Shown here: in pieces, positions 3,379-64,000 of the stretch
How positions within the stretch are numbered: the stretch's first letter is position 1
Layout: every line of letters starts with the position of its first letter
NCBI GenBank assembly: GCA_032622095.1
Contig: CP136063.1
Location: 84,297,980-84,361,979, forward strand
Direction of reading: 5' to 3'
DNA length: 64,000 bases
Source: Siphonodentalium dalli
Taxonomy: Eukaryota; Mollusca; Scaphopoda; Gadilida; Siphonodentaliidae
The notes under the pieces: generated by a model
The model's input: the letters and a program-made list of their open reading frames with translations, nothing else
What the model was told of the DNA's origin: nothing
Database searches by the model: none
Translations under genes and position numbers: made by a program

Positions 3379-3912
3379 TTACATCTGCTTAATTAACTGG
3401 AAGAAAATTTTTGTTAGAACTTTTGATCCTAACATATTCAGGTGTAAACCACCATCCCTTCTGGCATATAATGATCTATCAGGATTGCCCCCTTTTAATA
3501 AAAATGGACGAAATGAATGACCAAATGTTATGTAATTACGATTACAAAGAGTCTTCAACTTGTTGTTTACTCTGTAAACCTTGTTAGCTGTGTACTGGTA
3601 ATAACATGGCCTCGGAAGAATAGCTGACATAGTGATTTTCACTTTGAGTTTCTTTAAAGTTCCAATTAGATTTCCGAATTCTGATTCTAAGTCACCTTCG
3701 GTCAAACCGTTAGCTATATCGTTTGTACCTACATGTACCAGTACACAGTCAAAGGATTGGATGAATGCCGATGAGTCCCGAACGTAACCTGCCAATCTGT
3801 TGATGGTATAACCACGAAGGCACTCAACATATGCACCGTCAATATCAGAAACAAATTTGATGATAGAGTCACCAAGTATCAATAATGTTTTTCCGTTTCC
3901 TGGAAAATAAAA
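3379..3912 (-). CDS. SGNH/GDSL hydrolase domain of the Ngaro-like element
   Basis: This encodes a putative esterase of the SGNH superfamily, a domain known as an accessory protein in many Ngaro and some CR1/L2-type retroelements; its role in transposition is not established. The visible blocks are the nucleophile block (LILGDSIIKF, Ser of GDS), the oxyanion Asn block (HVGTNDIANG) and the C-terminal Asp/His block (DGGLHLNMLGS), so the full Ser-Asn-Asp-His set is present. The frame is open for about 178 codons from the TAA at 3913-3915, which ends the recombinase in the same frame. The first ATG is not at the domain start: the domain opens at FYFPGNGKTLLILGDS. A CAG preceded by pyrimidines (TTTTATTTTCCAG) lies just upstream, so entry by splicing or stop readthrough is possible. 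It is the only undamaged frame of the element. It is unlikely to be a host gene, since it sits exactly where Ngaro hydrolases lie. Confidence 0.8.
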   Translation of the reverse strand, partial: FYFPGNGKTLLILGDSIIKFVSDIDGAYVECLRGYTINRLAGYVRDSSAFIQSFDCVLVHVGTNDIANGLTEGDLESEFGNLIGTLKKLKVKITMSAILPRPCYYQYTANKVYRVNNKLKTLCNRNYITFGHSFRPFLLKGGNPDRSLYARRDGGLHLNMLGSKVLTKIFFQLIKQM

Positions 3913-4950
3913 TTAGGGATTCAACAAAGTAGAAGCCATTCTTTGCGAAACAGATATTTTGTCGGCTGTGGAAAATTCTAAATATATTTTGTAGGCTTCA
4001 CTTTTCCAGTCACCATGTTGTTGAATCAATTCGGAGGGGACTTTTGATCTAAATGCCCATGAGGCTCCACCCCGTCTAAATGAATGGGATGAATATAGTT
4101 TAGGGTTTCGACCAGTTTGTGCCGGAAGGGCCGTAATTTAATTGTAAGTTCTCTGTATGTAATTGGTACTAATGTTTGACCAGCTCTTTTTACAAAGGCT
4201 GGAGAGCTATCTGAAGCTGGGATTAAGGAGATCATGTTTTTATATGCTTCAACTGGACAAAATTTGGAGCTAGGAATCGCTATGACTGGTATTGTCAAAA
4301 CACGCTGACCAAATTGAATGGTCTTGGACCACCTAATGGTAACTGAAAGATATTCTGGAAATATTGTAATATCCGAACGTTTCAATATATTGTTGCAGTC
4401 GGAAGCTCTACGAGTATTAGGGACTATATTAGATTTTCTTAACATTAGAAAAAAGGCAGTTAAAAAGAGAGACCAGAAAGTAACATCCAATTCTGAATTA
4501 AACTCTAATAATTCCCAAAATTCTAACAAAATATCTGGTGTAATAGGTGCCGCTCGAACAGGGCAATGTGGATGTAATCGTGAAAATACCCCTAATCATT
4601 AATTTGAGATAATAGGAGTCAAATGCTTCGAAATCAAAGTTCTTAACCACATGTAGAAACTTGATACCAGATAAATAATTCTGTATGGATGCTGATGATT
4701 TAAAGGATCTGCTCAAAAATTGAACATAACAAGCCAATGTTTTGACTGAGGCTGGTAATGGTTTAAGGCCAAAGTAAATACAAAATTGAAGATAGGTGAG
4801 CAGTTGGGTATGTAGATTCTTCTGTGTCCCTTCCGCAAAGGCTGCTTTATGTGATATTTTCATGTCTTCTTTCAAGACTTGTAGGGCTGCATCTACAAAT
4901 AGTAGGACAAAACCAGTCACAGTCAAACCTAGCCCCAAAAGTCATATGTC
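3913..4950 (-). pseudogene. Tyrosine recombinase of the Ngaro-like element, frameshifted
   Basis: The N-terminal core-binding part is read from about 4938 (AAFAEGTQKNLHTQLLTYLQF). The catalytic part holds the first arginine in LMLRKSNIVP, the H-x-x-R box as HSFRRGGASWAF, and the terminal tyrosine region in KIYLEF. The R-H-R-Y set is therefore present at the sequence level, but the frame shifts near 4585 and again near 4090, so no intact protein is encoded. The frame ends at TAA 3913-3915, directly before and in the same frame as the hydrolase. In the family this enzyme integrates the circular cDNA intermediate by site-specific recombination. Confidence 0.8.
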
Positions 4951-4961
4951 AAAGTGTCATA

Positions 4962-7400
4962 CTACCAGTCATGTGTAAAACCAAATATATGTGGATCTAC
5001 ACTTACTTCAATAAGGTCATTTGATAGGCCCCATTTTGATAATAAACTGAAAAATTTGTACTGAGCCTCAGGATCGGAATACCATCTTGACAGATAATCT
5101 GAAATCCTGTTTGATTTTGTATCTAAATAAACGGATCTTACTTCAAATTGATACAAGGCTGATAAATAGCAGATCTCGCGTAGACAAGATTGGAGAAATT
5201 TATTTACTGTTCTGCCTGAATTGTGACAGAAACTAAATTATCACAATATATCATGCGTTTCCCCATGAGCTGACTACCCCAGAGCTTCAGAGCAACGCAA
5301 ATGGTTAGCAACTCAAGGGCATTTATATCTAAGTGCTGTTCTTTGACAAATGATGGGAATTCAGAATGAAAGTACTGACAGTTAAAGAATCCCCCACAGC
5401 CTGACAAACATGAATCTGTTGAGAAATATTCATCAGGTGCGGACTATTCTTCTATAGACATAATTGAAATCCCATTATATTGTCTTAAAAATTTTGACCA
5501 CCATAAAAGGTCTTTACGAATGTATGATCTTACATTATATTGTCTACCGGGGGGAGATGCATTTATTTCTTTCAACCAACTAAGTAATCTAGAAACAAAT
5601 ATTCTACCAGGTTTAACACATTGGCTAATGAATTGTAATTTTCCCAATAAAGATTGTAATTCTGTCAAATAGGCCCTTCGTCGTGGAAGCCATGAATCAA
5701 CCAGTTTCAATTTCTTCCAGACGATCTTCCGTAATTCTAAGCATTAATGACTCTGTGTTAAATTCAATTCCTAGGAATGTCATAATTGTGGATGGAGAGC
5801 ATGCTTTTTCTAAGGATTCTTGCAAACCACAATTTTTTAGCAGATCACCTAACTGTTCATATGCTAATGAAGTTTTTGCGGGGTGATCAGCACCACAAAA
5901 ATCATCTAGATAGTTCAGAACATAGAAGTTCTGTCTTGCCATCATAAACGGAATAATGGATGACATTCGTTGAAATATATAGGCTTATGATTTACGGCCC
6001 ATAGGCAGAGCTGCATCAAAATACAATTCGTCATTCCACATAAATCCTAAGTGATGTACGTCACCTGGATCGAGATAAACTTGTCTGTATGATTTTTTTA
6101 AATCTTTCTTATATAGCAAACATCCAGGTCCTAATTTTTTAACTAATGCTACTAAGTCATCAACTGAGGGATAAGACACTTTAATAGGCAAAGCTAAATA
6201 GGTATCACCTGGGATTTTTGTATTTACTGAAGAATTGAATGGGAAACTTAAGTCAAAGATAACTCTACGTTCGGAAGAGTTTCTTTTGGGAACAGTATTA
6301 AGAGGAGAAACTGTGTGGTTGTTTGAAAATGGATTTTTTGAAAATGGTCCAATCACAGAATGTCTAGATATTTCTTCAGCCACATACTGAGACATTGCTG
6401 TTTGAAAATTAACAGCACCTTTGTGATTCTGAGGTATGTCAGTCTGGCAATTAACTGCATTGTCAAAGTGTATATTAATTGGAAAACCAAATTCCAATAA
6501 ATCTGCTATTTCATTGTCTGGGTAATCTACTAGTCCTTGGCGGATGAAAGGTATATTGAGTCTAGAATAAATTGGAATCTTACACCCTTTAAAATTTGGT
6601 AGGCCCGATTCGATGATAAGGCGATTGGCCTCAACCAAATATTCAGTTGATGTACTTAGAGCAGTAGGTATGCCAGGATCAATGCTTGAAGTTTGTCTGT
6701 TAGCCCTGGTTGAAGATTTATTCAAATTATCTTGTTTATTTGGTGATACATGAGTTTGGCATTCATATGTGCTACTATTATCTATAATATAATTAATATG
6801 ATCAGACAATTTGGATGCTGGAGATAACACATTTTCAATTTCAAACCGACATTCATTCGTGTCACTCAAATTATCATATAAATGAATGTCGGTCTCAAAT
6901 CCAGAATTATCTGATTGATCAGCAGAAGCCATCATTGGAATTATCGGTTGAAATGTATGATCAATTTTACCATTGCTAGTCTCTACTGACCAATCAAAGT
7001 TAGGATAACTTTTCCATTCAATGTATTTTGTATTGTTTACAACCAACTTGTTATCAGGCATGAATTTCTTATTATGATGTGAGTCATTTATTGTTGCAAT
7101 ATGATCAGACAATTTGGATGCCGGAGATAACACATTTTCAATTTCAAACCGACACTCATTTGTGTCACTCATATTATCATATAAATGAATGTCGGTCTCA
7201 AATCCAGAATTATCTGATTGATCAGCAGAAGCCATCATTGGAATTATCGGTTGAAATGTATGATCAATTTTACCATTGCTAGTCTCTACTGACCAACCAA
7301 GTTAGGATCACTTTTCCATTCAATGTATTTTGTATTGTTTACAACCAACTTGTTATCAGGCATGAATTTCTTATTATGTGAGTCATTTATTGTTGCAACC
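4962..7400 (-). pseudogene. Reverse transcriptase-RNase H of the Ngaro-like element, multiply broken
   Basis: RT motifs run along the - strand: SYPSVDDLVALVKKLGPG, motif A as LYKKDLKKSYRQV, LYFDAALPMG, and the active site as VLNYLDDF (the YLDD form usual in this order). The thumb/connection region (SLLGKLQF, PGRIFVSRLLSWL) follows. RNase H begins at FSTDSCLSGCGGF, continues to HLDINALELLTI and MIYCDN, and ends with NRISDYLSRW. Lesions seen: a one-base deletion near 7301 within a duplicated segment, an in-frame TAA at 5985-5987 between LPMG and the YLDD block, a frameshift near 5710, an in-frame TAG at 5444-5446 where a Trp is expected, and a frameshift near 5225. The protein would have copied the element RNA into cDNA. 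Confidence 0.85.
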
Positions 7401-27599: not shown

Positions 27600-29330
27600 T
27601 GATCTTGAGAGTAAATATACAATACAATACAATAATTAATTTGTATAGCGCTCAATATTATGAGTACATATTCAACGGCGCTTTAGATTACATCGAGCTC
27701 ATGGCTTAATCAGCATAATACATGTACATGCACATATATCTAGGAATTAAATGCTACATCAAAGAGATATGTTTTGAGGCCGGTCTTAAACTTATTTAAA
27801 TCAGTGAATATTTTCAAGTGAGGTGGAATGCTATTCCATAGATGTGGACCTGCAAATGAAAATGCCCTATCGCCAAACGTTTTCTGTTTGTTGAAAGGAA
27901 TGTACAAAGGCATACTACTATCAGATCGTAATTCATATGTACACACATTTCTGTCTTTGATCATATCCTGCATGTATATACAATGGTGACATGTTATTAC
28001 GAGATTTGAATACAAGCAAAATAATTTTGAACATGATTCGATACTCCACTGGCAGCCAGTGTAATTGCTTGAGAACTGGAGTTATATGTTCATGCCGAAG
28101 AGTGTATGATACAACTCGCGCCGCAGCATTTGGCACTTTTTGCAGGCGATCACACTGGTAATCCGGTAGTCCATACAGTAAAGAATTACAGTAATCTAAG
28201 TGTGACGTGACAAAAGCATGGACCAATGTCTTAGTTGAGTCTACATCGAGGTATTGTCTATTTTGTCGGATTTTGTATAAACATCTGAACGCCTTCTTAC
28301 ACATATTAGAGATATGGTTATCCATTATCATGTTTGTGTCAAAATACGATCCCAGGTTGCGAACAGTGTCCTTTGTTGGTATGTCGGCGTCTCCCACATG
28401 AATTGAACTGATGTTGACTTTCTGAAGTTGTTGTCGAGAACCAATGATTATGAATTCAGTCTTATCGTCATTTATCATGAGTCGGTTGGTAATCATCCAC
28501 GCTCTAATGTCCACAATACAGTTCTCCACAATTTGACGGGCTTTAGTTTCGCCTCTCTCTGTCGGTCGAAATGAAAAGTATATTTGGGTATCATCTGCAT
28601 AGCCGTGAACATCGGGGAGGTGACTTTCAACAACTGAGACAACTTCCTTGTGGAACTCCGCACTCGATGGGGACATTTGTAGACTTTGAGCCATTAATGG
28701 ATATTTGCTGTGATCGGTTCGCGAGGTAAGATTTCAACCAGATAGCTGCAGTGCCGCGAACACCAAAGTCAGATTGTAGAGTATCTAAAAGAATATCATG
28801 GCGGACGGTGTCGAAAGCAGCGCTCAAATCTAGTAGCACAAGCAGAGTGACCTTTCTTGTTTCCATGCTGCAGAGAATATCATTTTGGACATTAAGCAGT
28901 GCGGTTTCAGTTGAATGGTGTTGACGGAAAGCAGAAGTGTTTATTGGAAGAGGTGCATGTTGTTCGCTGTGCCAAATGAGTTGATCTATCACTGCCTTTT
29001 CACACAATTTAGAAACGAAGGATAGGTTGCTGACGGGTCGGAAGTTCTTGAAAACAAGGTCGGCACCGGATTTCTTGAGAAGAGGGTGAACTATGGCTGT
29101 TTTCCAGCTACTGGGAACATGTCCTTGGCTTAATGATAGGTTTATCAACTGGGTGATGATAGGTATCAGGGAGTCACATTTCTTGAGTAGCGTTGTTGGT
29201 ATAGGATCGAGTTCACAAGATGCATTTGAAGAGCGTTTGATGATTTTAACGACGTCGTCATGTGGATGAACTACATGTATCCGTATCAATACCATTCCCA
29301 GTGGAAACAGACAGTACTGGGAAATCACTG
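27600..29330 (-). mobile_element. 5'-truncated CR1/Jockey-like LINE
   Basis: The element holds the reverse transcriptase remnant described next. On the - strand a 3' untranslated region ends in AGCGCTATACAAATTAATT and a (TTGTA)n-like tail near 27615, a 3' end style seen in CR1-group LINEs. The endonuclease domain and ORF1 are missing, as expected from 5' truncation during target-primed reverse transcription. A palindromic element lies just beyond the 5' limit at 29469. Confidence 0.85.
27740..29328 (-). pseudogene. LINE reverse transcriptase remnant
   Basis: The order on the - strand is FRPVSNLSFVSKLCEK, motif A as LLVLLDLSAAFDTVRH, motif B as GVPQGS, motif C as HGYADDTQIY, then LMINDDKTEFIIIG, LDYCNSLLYGLP and a C-terminal FGDRAFSFAGPHLWNSIP. 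About 45-50 bases between GVPQGS and YADD appear deleted, which also shifts the frame near 28640, and a second frameshift lies near 27975. The RT core is therefore inactive. Assignment to the CR1/L2/Jockey group rests on the motif B-C style and the RAFS...LWNSIP tail; the exact clade is not resolved. Confidence 0.85.
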
Positions 29331-29468
29331 CATGTTCTTCACAAAGTTCACAAGAATAAAATTGCTGGAATAATTGTTAATTTATTAATGCACACAATGC
29401 TATTTATCTATGTTAATATTTTCATCCTGTGAAACAAAAATTTCCAATGTTGCTAATTAATAAAATAC

Positions 29469-33835: not shown

Positions 33836-34510
33836 GAGAGTAGTTGGGCGCGAAGCGCCCAGGATGGTCGAAAAATTCGAGTGGTCTTTTCCTTCACCCC
33901 ACGATTTGTTAATTTGAGGATATCTGAACATAGAAAATCGTCATGTCCGAACGCTGTAAAAATTTAATTCAATGTTCTATGGGGTAGAGCCCACGAGCTT
34001 TAATACGGGATGTGGGGGTGCCCTAAGTGTCCCTTTAAGTTGGATGTTTGAGTAGTTGCTGAGCGAGTCGTATATATGGTGCGCTGACACGAGGAACGGG
34101 GCCCGTGTTATAAGGTTGAAATGGTGTTAGTTGTATTAGTTATGCCCGAGTACTCTGCAAACAAGCATTCTTAAAATTCAAGGACTTTCTCGGCATATAA
34201 ACATGTGTGTTGTACCCCCCCCCCCCCCCCGCAAATCGTACATTTTTGCGTCGACAGTTTATGGCAATACTATGTTATTATGTTAAGAGAGCTTTTGCAT
34301 TAGCTGTAACGTGTTGTTTAGATTTTTCTCTCTCCCTCCCATCCTCCCCTGGGCACGGGCGTAGATGGAAGCATGTATTGAGAAAATAATGATATATACA
34401 GTGTTTGGTAGACTTTAATAGCTGATAATATATGTGAATGGTATTAACAACAGATATATGCACGTTTTGTATGGTTTTTTTGTGTTGGTATTTTCGTTAT
34501 TTTGATTAAA
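33836..34510 (+). repeat. Interspersed repeat of ~650 bp, copy 1
   Basis: It starts AGTAGTTGGGCGCGAAGCGC, followed by CTTCACCCCACGATTTGTT, AGAGCCCACGAGCTTTAATA and GGGGCCCGTGTTATAA. It matches 44992-45690 in order and orientation, with a C-run insertion at 34216-34230. Both have a GGGCGCGAAGCGCCC hairpin near the left end. Class unknown. Confidence 0.8.
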
Positions 34511-34629
34511 ATTTTATATGTACATATTGGACAGTAACAGTGTGTTCTGATCCGTTCCTGACTCCCGAAGAATGGAAAGAACGGCAAACGGGCCGAACAT
34601 ATGTGGGTATGCCCTTCCCAAACTCGTGA

Positions 34630-34855
34630 AATTTCGAGTTGGGACCTTCACCTACAGTGAATTACATTATTAATGAACAGATAATAACTAAGAAATATAT
34701 TCCCCGCGTTATTTTTTCTACTTTAAAAGGTATAAGGTTCCCTGTCAAAACTTCAAAAAGTTCCCAGGTTTGTACTGGTGGAATATGATCTCTACGGGCG
34801 TTAGCCAGAGTATAGATTCATGGCATGATCTAGAGAACAGGCTGATCAGGGAGTC
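34630..34855 (+). repeat. MITE-like repeat copy upstream of the alpha-arrestin gene
   Basis: GGACCTTCACCTACAGTGAA, AAGGTTCCCTGTCAAAACTT, TTCCCAGG and GTGGAATATGATCTC match the inverted pair and tandem copies at 58590-59404. It ends about 190 bases before the ATG and so limits the unique upstream region. Confidence 0.75.
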
Positions 34856-34859
34856 AAGT

Positions 34860-34867
34860 TGACGTCA
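34860..34867. promoter_or_regulatory. CRE palindrome TGACGTCA
   Basis: A perfect cAMP response element consensus lies 175 bases before the alpha-arrestin ATG, just outside the upstream repeat. A related TGACGTGA is at 34990-34996. A single 8-mer has limited specificity, so this is only suggestive. Confidence 0.35.
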
Positions 34868-34959
34868 TATCCTAATTTCTCAGTCGGCTCTCCTGACGTA
34901 CATGCATCTCACCTCCGTCTTCTCTTATTTGTGTTGCAGATTCACTATAGACGTTAAAC

Positions 34960-34976
34960 CACGTGGATATCACGTG
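34960..34976. promoter_or_regulatory. Perfect carbohydrate-response-element-like pair of E-boxes
   Basis: The 17 bases CACGTGGATATCACGTG are two perfect E-boxes with exactly five bases between them, ending 65 bases before the alpha-arrestin ATG. This is the tandem E-box architecture to which MondoA-Mlx and ChREBP-Mlx heterotetramers bind, and vertebrate TXNIP and ARRDC4, both alpha-arrestins, are established targets of MondoA. The assignment here is inferred from spacing and location. The transcription start is unknown. A polypyrimidine-TGCAG acceptor-like site at 34930-34939 leaves open that this segment is part of a 5' UTR exon rather than upstream promoter. There is no TATA box at the expected place. 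Confidence 0.65.
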
Positions 34977-35041
34977 ATGTGTTTTTCTTGACGTGATGCG
35001 GAAATTCGATATTTGGCCTGTTTAATACAGCTCAGAACGCC

Positions 35042-35159
35042 ATGGGGAAGGAGGATAGTATCGAAATCATGCACAGTGGGCTAGGGAAGGTGCTACGCCC
35101 TGGCCAATCCATAGAAGGCACCGCATTTGTGACACTCAAAGACGAAACGAAAGTCAAAG
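35042..35159 (+). CDS. Alpha-arrestin (ARRDC/TXNIP-like) gene, exon 1
   Basis: The exon encodes residues 1-39 and the first base of codon 40. The start is the first in-frame ATG after TGA at 34994-34996, in a strong Kozak setting (GCCATGG). Residues PGQSIEGTAFVTL match the second strand of the arrestin N-domain, where alpha-arrestins typically read PGQ-x-V/I-x-G. The exon ends AAAG before GTGAGT (phase 1). Alpha-arrestins are cytoplasmic adaptors that recruit NEDD4-type ubiquitin ligases to membrane proteins; the TXNIP/ARRDC4 branch restrains glucose uptake. The C-terminal PPxY motifs that define that role lie outside the window, so the subfamily cannot be fixed. Confidence 0.85.
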
Positions 35160-35179
35160 GTGAGTATCGACTACATAAT

Positions 35180-35303
35180 TGCCAAGTCCGATTTTTTTAT
35201 CAACTCATATTTCCTTGATTATTTTTCAAATGTATTGATTATAATAATGTGATACATTGATGGAAAGAGCTCTAAGAAAAAATCGGACTTGGCACTGAAA
35301 GGG
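35180..35303 (+). mobile_element. MITE family A, left end truncated
   Basis: It begins GCCAAGTCCGATTTTTTTAT only about 20 bases inside intron 1 and ends TCGGACTTGGCACTGAAAGGG before TTAA (35304-35307). Complete relatives with TTAA on both sides lie at 46179-46420 and 56259-56461. Confidence 0.75.
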
Positions 35304-37312: not shown

Positions 37313-39262
37313 TTGAACTTATTATCTGAACATTTCCTATGGGATAACTACTCATCAATGATGCTTTAGTATAGAAAGGGTTAAACTTATTATCTGAACA
37401 TTTCCTATGTGGTAAATACTCATCAATGATGCTTTAGTATAGAAAGGGTTAAACTAATTATCTGAACAATTCCTATGGGATAACTACTCATCAATGATGC
37501 CTTAGTATAGAAATGGTTAAACTTATTATCTGAACATTTCCTATGGGATAACTTACTCATCAATGATGCTTTAGTATAGAAAGGGTTAAACTCATTATCT
37601 GAACATTTCCTATGGGGTAACTACTCATCAAAGATACTTTAGTATAGAAAGGGTTAAACTTATTATCTGAACATTTCCTATCGGATAACTACTCATCAAT
37701 GATGCTTTAGTATAGAAAGGGTTAAACTTATTATCTGAACATTTCCTATGGGATAACTTACTAATCAATGATTCTTTAGTATAGAAAGGGTTAAACTCAT
37801 TATCTGAACATTTCCTATGGGGTAACTACTCATCAATGATGCTTTAGTATAGAAATGGTTAAACTAATTATCTGAACAATTCCTATGGGATAACTACTCA
37901 TCAATGATGCCTTAGTATAGAAAGGGTTAAACTTATTATCTGAACATTTCCTATGGGATAACTTACTCATCAATGATGCTTTAGTATAGAAAGGGTTAAA
38001 CTCATTATCTGAACATTTCCTATGGGGGTAACTACTCATCAAAGATACTTTAGTATAGAAAGGGTTAAACTTATTATCTGAACATTTCCTATCGGATAAC
38101 TACTCATCAATGATGCTTTAGTATAGAAAGGGTTAAACTTATTATCTGAACATTTCCTATCGGATAACTTACTCATCAATGATGCTTTAGTATAGAAAGG
38201 GTTAAACTCATTATCTGAACATTTCCTATGGGGTAACTACTCATCAAAGATACTTTAGTATAGAAAGGGTTAAACTTATTATCTGAACATTTCCTATCGG
38301 ATAACTACTCATCAATGATGCTTTAGTATAGAAAGGGTTAAACTAGTTATCTGAACATTTCCTATGGGATAACGATGCTTTAGTATAGAAAGGGTTAAAC
38401 TTATTATCTGAACATTTCCTATGGGGTAACTACTCATCACAGATACTTTAGTATAGAAAGGGTTAAACTCATTATCTGAACATTTCCTATGGGGTAACTA
38501 CTCATCAAAGATACTTTAGTATAGAAATGGTTAAACTTATTATCTGAACATTTCCTATGGATAACTACTCAGCAATGATGCTTTAGTATAGAAAGGGTTA
38601 AACTAATTATCTGAACATTTCCTATGGGATAACTACTCATCAATGATGCTTTAGTATAGAAAGGGTTAAACTTATTATCTGAACATTTCCTATGGGATAA
38701 CTTACTCATCAATGATGCTTTAGTATAGAAATGGTTAAACTTATTATCTGAACATTTCCTATGGGGTAACTACTCATCAAAGATACTTTAGTATAGAAAG
38801 GGTTAAACTTATTATCTGAACATTTCCTATGGATAACTACTCAGCAATGATGCTTTAGTATAGAAAGGGTTAAACTTATTATCTGAACATTTCCTATAGA
38901 TAACTACTCAGCAATGATGCTTTAGTATAGAAAGGGTTAAACTCATTATCTGAACATTTCCTATCGGATAACTACTCAGCAATGATGCTTTAGTATAGAA
39001 AGGGTTAAACTTATTATCTGAACATTTCCTATGGGATAACTTACTCATCAATGATGCTTTAGTATAGAAAGGGTTAAATTTATTATCTGAACATTTCCTA
39101 TGGATAACTATTCATCAATGATGCTTTAGAATAGAAAGGGTTAAACTTATTAGCTGAATATTTCCCATGGGATAACTACTCATTAATGATGCTTTAGTAT
39201 AGAAATGGTTGAACTTATTATCTGAACATTTCATCAATGATGCTTTAGTATAGAACGGGTTA
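37313..39262. repeat. Satellite of 68-bp units, about 29 copies
   Basis: The unit runs TTATTATCTGAACATTTCCT, ATGGGATAACTACTCATCAA, TGATGCTTTAGTATAGAAAG, GGTTAAAC. Spacing of the GTTAAAC landmark is mostly 68 bases, with 67-69-bp variants and one 57-bp deletion unit near 38340. A block of six units starting at 37449 is repeated at 37859, a higher-order period of 410 bases. The unit equals the 3' terminal ~68 bases of MITE family B, including its terminal repeat and TTAA. No coding. Confidence 0.95.
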
Positions 39263-44530: not shown

Positions 44531-44777
44531 TATATCCTTCATGTAAGAATATAAGAAACCACGCACCACCCGGCATTCTCAATATGTGTTGGGGTTAGGG
44601 TTAGGGCTAGGGTTAGTGTTAGGGTTAGGGTTAGGGCTAGGGCTATGGCTATGGTTAGGGTTATGGTTAGGGTTAGGGTTAGGGTTAGGGTTAGGGTTAG
44701 GGCTAGGGTTAGGGTTAGGGTTAGGGCTAAGGTTAGGGTTAGAGTTAGGGTTAGTGTATTCTTACACGAAGGACATA
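44531..44777. mobile_element. TIR element with a telomere-like (TTAGGG)n core, copy 1
   Basis: Inverted ends TATATCCTTCATGTAAGAAT and (complement of) TATGTCCTTCGTGTAAGAAT enclose about 175 bases of TTAGGG repeats with scattered GCTAGG and TATGG variants (44586-44760). Only the left sub-terminal part (AAACCACGCACCACC) is unique sequence. Leucine-glycine frames across the core are repeat artefacts. Confidence 0.8.
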
Positions 44778-47456: not shown

Positions 47457-48475
47457 ATAAAATGTGTCCGCCGAGATATAGTCGGGTCATACACTCAATA
47501 AAATGTGTCCGCCGAGATATAGTCGGGTCATATATATGTATACCACTCAATAAAATGTGTCCGCCGATATATAGTCGAGTCAGACCACTCAATAAAATGT
47601 GTCCGCCGAGATATAGTCGAGTCAGACCACTCAATAAAATGTGTCCGCCGAGATATAGTCGGGTCATACCATTCAATAAAATGTGTCCGCCGAGATATAG
47701 TCGGGTCATACCATTCAATAAAATGTGTCCGCCGAGATATAGTCGAGTCATACCACTCAATAAAATGTGTCCGCCGAGATATAGTCGGGTCATACCATTC
47801 AATAAAATGTGTCCGCCGAGATATAGTCGAGTCATACCACTCAATAAAATGTGTCCGCCGAGATATAGTCGAGTCATACCACTCAATAAAATGTGTCCGC
47901 CGAGATATAGTCGAGTCATACCACTCAATAAAATGTGTCCGCCGAGATATAGTCGGGTCATACCACTCAATAAAATGTGTCCGCCGAGATATAGTCGGGT
48001 CATACCACTCAATAAAATGTGTCCGCCGATATATAGTCGAGTCATACCACTCAATAAAATGTGTCCGCCGAGATATAGTCGGGTCATACCACTCAATAAA
48101 ATGTGTCCGTCGATATATAGTCGAGTCATACCACTCAATAAAATGTGTCCGCCGAGATATAGTCGAGTCATACCACTCAATAAAATGTGTCCGCCGAGAT
48201 ATAGTCGAGTCATACCACTCAATAAAATGTGTCCGCCGAGATATAGTCGGGTCATACCACTCAATAAAATGTGTCCGCCGAGATATAGTCGGGTCATACC
48301 ACTCAATAAAATGTGTCCGCCGAGATATAGTCGGGTCATACCACTCAATAAAATGTGTCCGCCGAGATATAGTCGAGTCATACCACTCAATAAAATGTGT
48401 CCGCCGAGATATAGTCGAGTCATACCACTCAATAAAATGTGTCCGCCGAGATATAGTCGGGTCGTACCACTCAAT
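47457..48475. repeat. Minisatellite of 42-bp units, about 24 copies
   Basis: The unit is CAATAAAATGTGTCCGCCGA, GATATAGTCGAGTCATACCACT. Units are exactly 42 bases with few variants: G/A in GTCGRGTC, C/T in CCAYTCAAT, and a G/T change giving GATATATAG. One early unit carries an extra ATATATGT. Because 42 is a multiple of three and the unit lacks stops in three frames, 325-351-codon frames run through it on both strands. There is no sign of splice sites or a natural start, so it is treated as non-coding intronic repeat. Confidence 0.95.
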
Positions 48476-50984: not shown

Positions 50985-51107
50985 AGATAACAGTCGAGAT
51001 GCTCGGGGAGGCTCGAGTCGAGTGGCAAGTACGACAAGGCAGGGACAAGCGGACATTCACGGGCAGACAAAAGTTTTTTCACGAAGAAATCATGTTATTT
51101 TCAAAAG
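50985..51107 (+). CDS. Alpha-arrestin (ARRDC/TXNIP-like) gene, exon 2
   Basis: The exon follows an excellent acceptor and ends AAAG before GTGAGTA (phase 1), 123 bases. With the base from exon 1 it encodes EITVEMLGEARVEWQVRQG and on to FHEEIMLFSKG. LGEARVEW is the conserved G-x-A-x-V-x-W strand of the arrestin N-domain, and the following charged loop leads to the F-x-x-E-I-x-L strand that precedes the next exon in this family. Spacing from the PGQ motif in exon 1 is normal for the family, so no coding exon is missing between them. The next exon, which should carry the L-x-x-G-x-x-x-F-P-F-x-F region, was searched for by eye to 64000 and not found. Confidence 0.9.
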
Positions 51108-63815: not shown

Positions 63816-64000
63816 CATACCTATATGGCTTATTGGTTTACAATGCATGGACCGATATTGACGATTTAACCACCAAAAGGATCGTAAATAAACGCTGATT
63901 ATCAAACGCTTGACTATCTTTATGGAACAGAACTCCTATAGGACGATAAGTAGTTACTGAAAATATACATAATCGGGAAAGAAATTTAAGCAGTCGTGAC

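Follow-up and report, generated by a model that had tools for sequence, protein, structure and literature searches.

Within the 64-kb stretch of Siphonodentalium dalli DNA that was analysed (referred to as the window) we found a pair of perfect E-boxes close to the start codon of a gene which, judged by its sequence, is an alpha-arrestin. Two coding parts of this gene could be located:

35042–35159, + strand: first coding part of the alpha-arrestin gene, ending at the donor AAAG/GTGAGT, tied best of 7354 GTs
50985–51107, + strand: second coding exon, giving an Arrestin_N match when joined to the first; acceptor rank 2, donor tied best

The first coding part encodes the peptide MGKEDSIEIMHSGLGKVLRPGQSIEGTAFVTLKDETKVK, and scoring of splice sites over the whole window placed exon 2 in phase 15.8 kb downstream, with the donors of exons 1 and 2 tying as the best of 7354 GTs. 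Together both exons encode 80 residues that match Arrestin_N (PF00339) in Pfam with an E of 3e-08 and 34.2 bits at a cut-off of 24.9, and a stretch of human TXNIP of equal length reaches 34.5 bits. Neither exon alone matches Arrestin_N in Pfam, although the first 40–46 residues of human TXNIP, ARRDC3 and ARRDC1 do yield this family, at scores under its curated cut-off (E 0.0005, 0.004 and 0.2). The alpha-arrestin identity, part of the original prediction, is therefore secure because of the match that exon 2 adds, exon 1 alone being insufficient. An identification from exon 1 alone was rejected, as Pfam yields just a weak match to NMD3_OB (E 0.065–0.16) and a PDB search two ‘Scone’ proteins (E 0.03).

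The joined peptide aligns with TXNIP over 61 residues, gap-free across the splice junction, and its score of 69 was equalled by none of 2000 shuffles (mean 25.8). Local alignment scores were 66 for ARRDC3 and 52 for ARRDC1 in a comparison set without ARRDC4. For exon 1 alone no shuffle out of 2000 was as good against TXNIP or ARRDC1, and 106 were against ARRDC3, which is hardly significant; exon 2 alone is significant against ARRDC3 (11/2000) and neither against TXNIP (497/2000) nor ARRDC1 (715/2000). When TXNIP was searched with phmmer against 2095 six-frame fragments exon 1 ranked first (E 1.8), and the tblastn matches listed were led by a stop-containing sequence of the − strand (E 0.13) and included exon 1 at E 1.5, with exon 2 absent among them. 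Against PDB the best match of the 80 residues was a G-beta WD40 protein (E 0.0096), and after it came TXNIP (E 0.061–0.25) and ARRDC3 (E 0.49–0.57). Relatives of the joined peptide were confirmed for none of 10 pattern matches in viral_contigs and none of 103 in genome_contigs (prokaryotes). We do not assign the gene to a family member, as 80 joined residues are too few to settle orthology with ARRDC4 or TXNIP. Motif patterns for later arrestin exons gave nothing convincing in the window, and none of 11 in-phase internal exon candidates between exon 2 and position 64000 looked arrestin-like by eye, and later exons, where an Arrestin_C domain and PPxY motifs would be expected, seem to be situated outside the window.

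The neighbourhood contains several further features. On the + strand 945–1095 and 2460–2497 join in frame to an arrestin-like C-terminal sequence with a PPPSY motif (ELPPPSYSES) across the junction; 945–1095 holds one in-frame stop, and the 31 residues before it match no Pfam family. From reading by eye, the acceptor score and a weak match to ARRDC3 (E 2.7) these pieces are probably the 3' exons of a second alpha-arrestin copy with the orientation of the gene at 35042, which suggests arrestin copies in tandem, the upstream copy being perhaps broken and a pseudogene. Intron 1 of the arrestin gene includes a telomere-like array of the TTAGGG type (44588–44754, GTTAGG repeated 27.8 times with 88 percent matches), a 68-base minisatellite of 28 copies (37316–39232) and a 42-base minisatellite of 22 copies (47540–48475, 97 percent), the latter with several open frames, as its unit length of 42 is divisible by three. 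TTAGGG-type arrays fit many animal phyla and do not fit most insects or nematodes. Mobile-element-like sequence is found on the − strand at 3379–7301, where one ORF resembles a GDSL/SGNH hydrolase (PF13472, 40.9 bits) and both further long ORFs tested match no Pfam family, and we take this block to be perhaps a DIRS/Ngaro-type element. A LINE-type reverse transcriptase lies in two overlapping frames at 27933–29376, also on the − strand (PF00078, 65.9 bits in one match and 21.5 bits, a value under the cut-off, in the other).

Upstream of the arrestin ATG the following features are located:

34860–34867, no strand: CRE palindrome TGACGTCA, present 4 times in the window
34894–34899, + strand: TGACGT, CRE half-site-like
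34938–34939, + strand: AG at which a predicted 3' splice site ends; a pyrimidine-rich tract precedes it, the 56 bases upstream contain no further AG, and its score ranks 41st among the 6038 AGs of the two strands
34940–35159, + strand: predicted exon with 5' leader and first coding part, the 5' end being a prediction
34960–34965, no strand: E-box 1, context CCACGTGG
34971–34976, no strand: E-box 2, context ATCACGTGAT (10-mer unique in the window)
34977–34991, + strand: upstream ORF MCFS, its ATG adjoining E-box 2
34989–34996, + strand: TGACGTGA, CRE-like, present twice in the window
34996–35025, + strand: upstream ORF MRKFDIWPV

The two E-boxes, CACGTGGATATCACGTG at 34960–34976, are the sole exact CACGTG-N5-CACGTG in the window and end 65 bases before the ATG at 35042, both as the original prediction had it. 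A degenerate pattern (CAYGNG-N5-CNCRTG) finds no match in the window beyond the exact pair. Single CACGTG sites are not enriched (11 observed, 9.95 expected), and the number of N5 pairs expected per window is 0.0015 in an order-1 model or 0.0019 from the 11 observed sites, which lies below the rate of about one in a hundred windows that had been put forward as an upper limit. In line with this, none of 100 dinucleotide shuffles of the window and none of 60 simulated 64-kb windows of order 2 contained such a pair. The spacing is that of a carbohydrate response element (ChoRE), which is described as a pair of E-boxes with five bases between them (PMC3323566; PMC11900861).

With respect to the position of the pair the predicted 3' splice site is of importance, as it ends at 34939, only 20 bases ahead of E-box 1. 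An acceptor at least as good as this one within 110 bases upstream is found for 94 of the 3014 ATGs in the window, corresponding to a chance of about 3 percent. Fourteen AGs on the + strand score at least as high and four of them are preceded by at least 40 AG-free bases, with exon starts at 945, 8366, 34940 and 50985 (12 of 27 on the − strand); among the other three, the one at 50985 opens the proven exon 2 of the arrestin gene, and the one at 945 is the probable start of an arrestin exon. The matrix behind these scores represents general knowledge of animal splice sites and was used without training on this genome. Weaker AGs near the pair end at 34883 (rank 192) and 35030 (rank 349), and use of the latter would leave the pair intronic. 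Because of the acceptor score, the AG-free stretch and the presence of 50985 and 945 among the similarly good sites, we consider it likely by our own weighing that an exon starts at 34940 in some transcript. Both E-boxes would therefore lie in the 5' leader alongside two short upstream ORFs, and the pair probably sits in transcribed sequence. Thus the claim that the element is directly upstream of the gene holds for its closeness to the ATG, while a promoter position is weakened by the strong splice site. The acceptor also comes near to, without amounting to, the situation of a start far upstream with the pair in internal untranslated sequence, which had been named as speaking against the proposal. 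Hence the position argues partly against a promoter, even if elements shortly behind a transcription start can be active as well and transcription may alternatively begin further downstream.

The pair is part of a dense group of ACGT cores at 34862, 34896, 34951, 34961, 34972 and 34991. These six cores in 133 bases are packed more closely than in any other 150-base stretch of the window, and the richest such stretch of each of 60 simulated windows contained two (3 windows), three (44) or four (13), with an average of 126 ACGT per simulated window against 144 in the real one, so that this null is slightly low. Outside the region none of 2731 real overlapping 150-base stretches with a GC of 0.42–0.50 has more than three cores. 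As the ACGT core was picked after viewing the region, the density figure is to be taken as an indication. The cluster from 34862 to 34994, combining CRE-like sites with E-boxes, suggests a regulatory module. In a scan of 34501–35060 no TATA[AT]A was found, the nearest upstream CCAAT/ATTGG is at 34526, about 430 bases from the pair, and a CCAAT at 35104 is inside coding exon 1. Matches of 34800–35199 elsewhere in the window are short (14–33 bases), and no repeat was detected within 34600–35200.

We propose, with somewhat less than even confidence, that the pair functions as a carbohydrate-response-type element within a compact module (34860–34996) at the 5' end of the alpha-arrestin gene, acting via Mondo-Mlx. 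What favours this proposal is the gene family, as it includes the MondoA targets TXNIP and ARRDC4, whose promoters are described as occupied by MondoA (PMC2937306). Upon a rise in hexose phosphate both boxes would be occupied by adjacent Mondo-Mlx dimers, which would raise the arrestin transcript, and the arrestin would then reduce the uptake of sugar or other cargo. Here we infer the binding protein, the sugar response, the start site and the effect on the gene. Since the leader exon probably starts at 34940, the module may represent a promoter, either proximal or alternative, or may act from shortly within the transcribed sequence. A Mondo factor probably exists in S. dalli, because a single Mondo gene is described for invertebrates (PMC3323566).

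Perfect CACGTG boxes are common to other bHLH-zipper factors, and by their flanks TCACGTGA and CCACGTGG suit several of these families. It is therefore conceivable, if rather unlikely in our view, that the module is real and serves MITF/TFEB, USF, Myc-Max or similar factors at the E-boxes together with CREB/ATF at the CRE-like sites, the five-base spacing being incidental. The composition of the cluster is in agreement with this, as only two of the six ACGT cores belong to the pair and three of the remaining four are part of TGACGT, so that bHLH and bZIP factors besides Mondo-Mlx could use the module. However, such factors leave the exact five-base spacing unexplained, in a window where CACGTG sites are otherwise never spaced by 0 to 15 bases. 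Perfect E-boxes are also not diagnostic of a ChoRE, because natural ChoREs are described as imperfect matches to the E-box consensus that are bound by a heterotetramer (PMC11900861).

That the two boxes arose by chance in a transcribed 5' leader, without particular function, we regard as unlikely. Any known motif ahead of any known gene would have been noticed and occasional matches are thus expected; simple scaling of the window figures gives 23–30 such pairs per billion bases by chance, and the acceptor at 34939, one of the four + strand sites of at least its score that follow 40 or more AG-free bases, would place them in such a leader. Against chance stands the cluster of ACGT cores that surrounds the pair. 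Translational control by a leader hairpin that the two palindromes would form (CACGUG-GAUAU-CACGUG) is highly improbable. In its favour are the upstream ATG that adjoins E-box 2 and the ability to pair that any palindrome present twice has, this stem being reported by a bacterial promoter and terminator scan of little bearing on an animal gene. Against it, the hairpin is absent from the minimum-energy fold of 34940–35060, a segment folding no better than its shuffles (z −0.06, 92 of 200 as good). Rfam at gathering scores and ARAGORN gave no matches.

Returning to the Mondo-Mlx proposal, a comparison with the known targets shows likeness as well as differences. Unlike the natural ChoREs of MondoA/ChREBP-Mlx targets, whose boxes are imperfect (PMC11900861), the S. 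dalli pair has two perfect boxes and is probably located inside an exon. The Txnip promoter is described as containing a pair of ChoREs, both imperfect, some 80 and 170 bases upstream of the transcription start and as needing CCAAT boxes (PMC2791861). With Txnip the S. dalli gene shares a ChoRE-type element near the start of an alpha-arrestin gene, but it has one element instead of two, and CRE-like sites instead of a CCAAT within about 430 bases upstream; the distance of the CCAAT and the lack of a TATA[AT]A speak against the proposal. What the gene shares with Txnip is membership of the alpha-arrestin family, and the likeness to ARRDC4, the second human alpha-arrestin with a MondoA-occupied promoter (PMC2937306), is likewise at the family level. 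The candidate switch is thus a fair lead, with a rare pair at a fitting gene and a cluster that suggests regulation, and with the choice of the binding factor being a guess.

In the papers considered TXNIP and ARRDC4 appear as targets in vertebrate cells (PMC2791861, PMC2937306, PMC12339002, PMC6387238), and this includes the study of the worm MML-1, which describes both in human cells (PMC12339002). By word search, a study of fly Mondo-Mlx has ‘TXNIP’ solely in its reference list (PMC3616910) and the text describing the fly TXNIP homologue VDUP1 is without the word Mondo (PMC6099297). Mondo control of an invertebrate alpha-arrestin was found in none of the best-ranked papers, as judged by title and start of abstract in a collection that covers few subscription journals. 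A review considers glucose control of alpha-arrestins as maybe a general feature, and describes yeast as having no known Mondo homolog, yet its alpha-arrestins respond to the carbon source (PMC6387238).

The suggestion that glucose control of alpha-arrestins predates the split of protostomes and deuterostomes goes too far, as a circuit cannot be dated from a single site in a single species. It is a quite unlikely extension of our proposal that a sugar-feedback loop from Mondo-Mlx to an alpha-arrestin operates in this non-vertebrate through a canonical ChoRE and CRE-like sites and is older than Txnip, which has been called vertebrate-specific (PMC2791861). If an invertebrate alpha-arrestin is indeed a direct target of Mondo-Mlx, the feedback on hexose uptake known from vertebrates would be an old animal circuit that predates Txnip.
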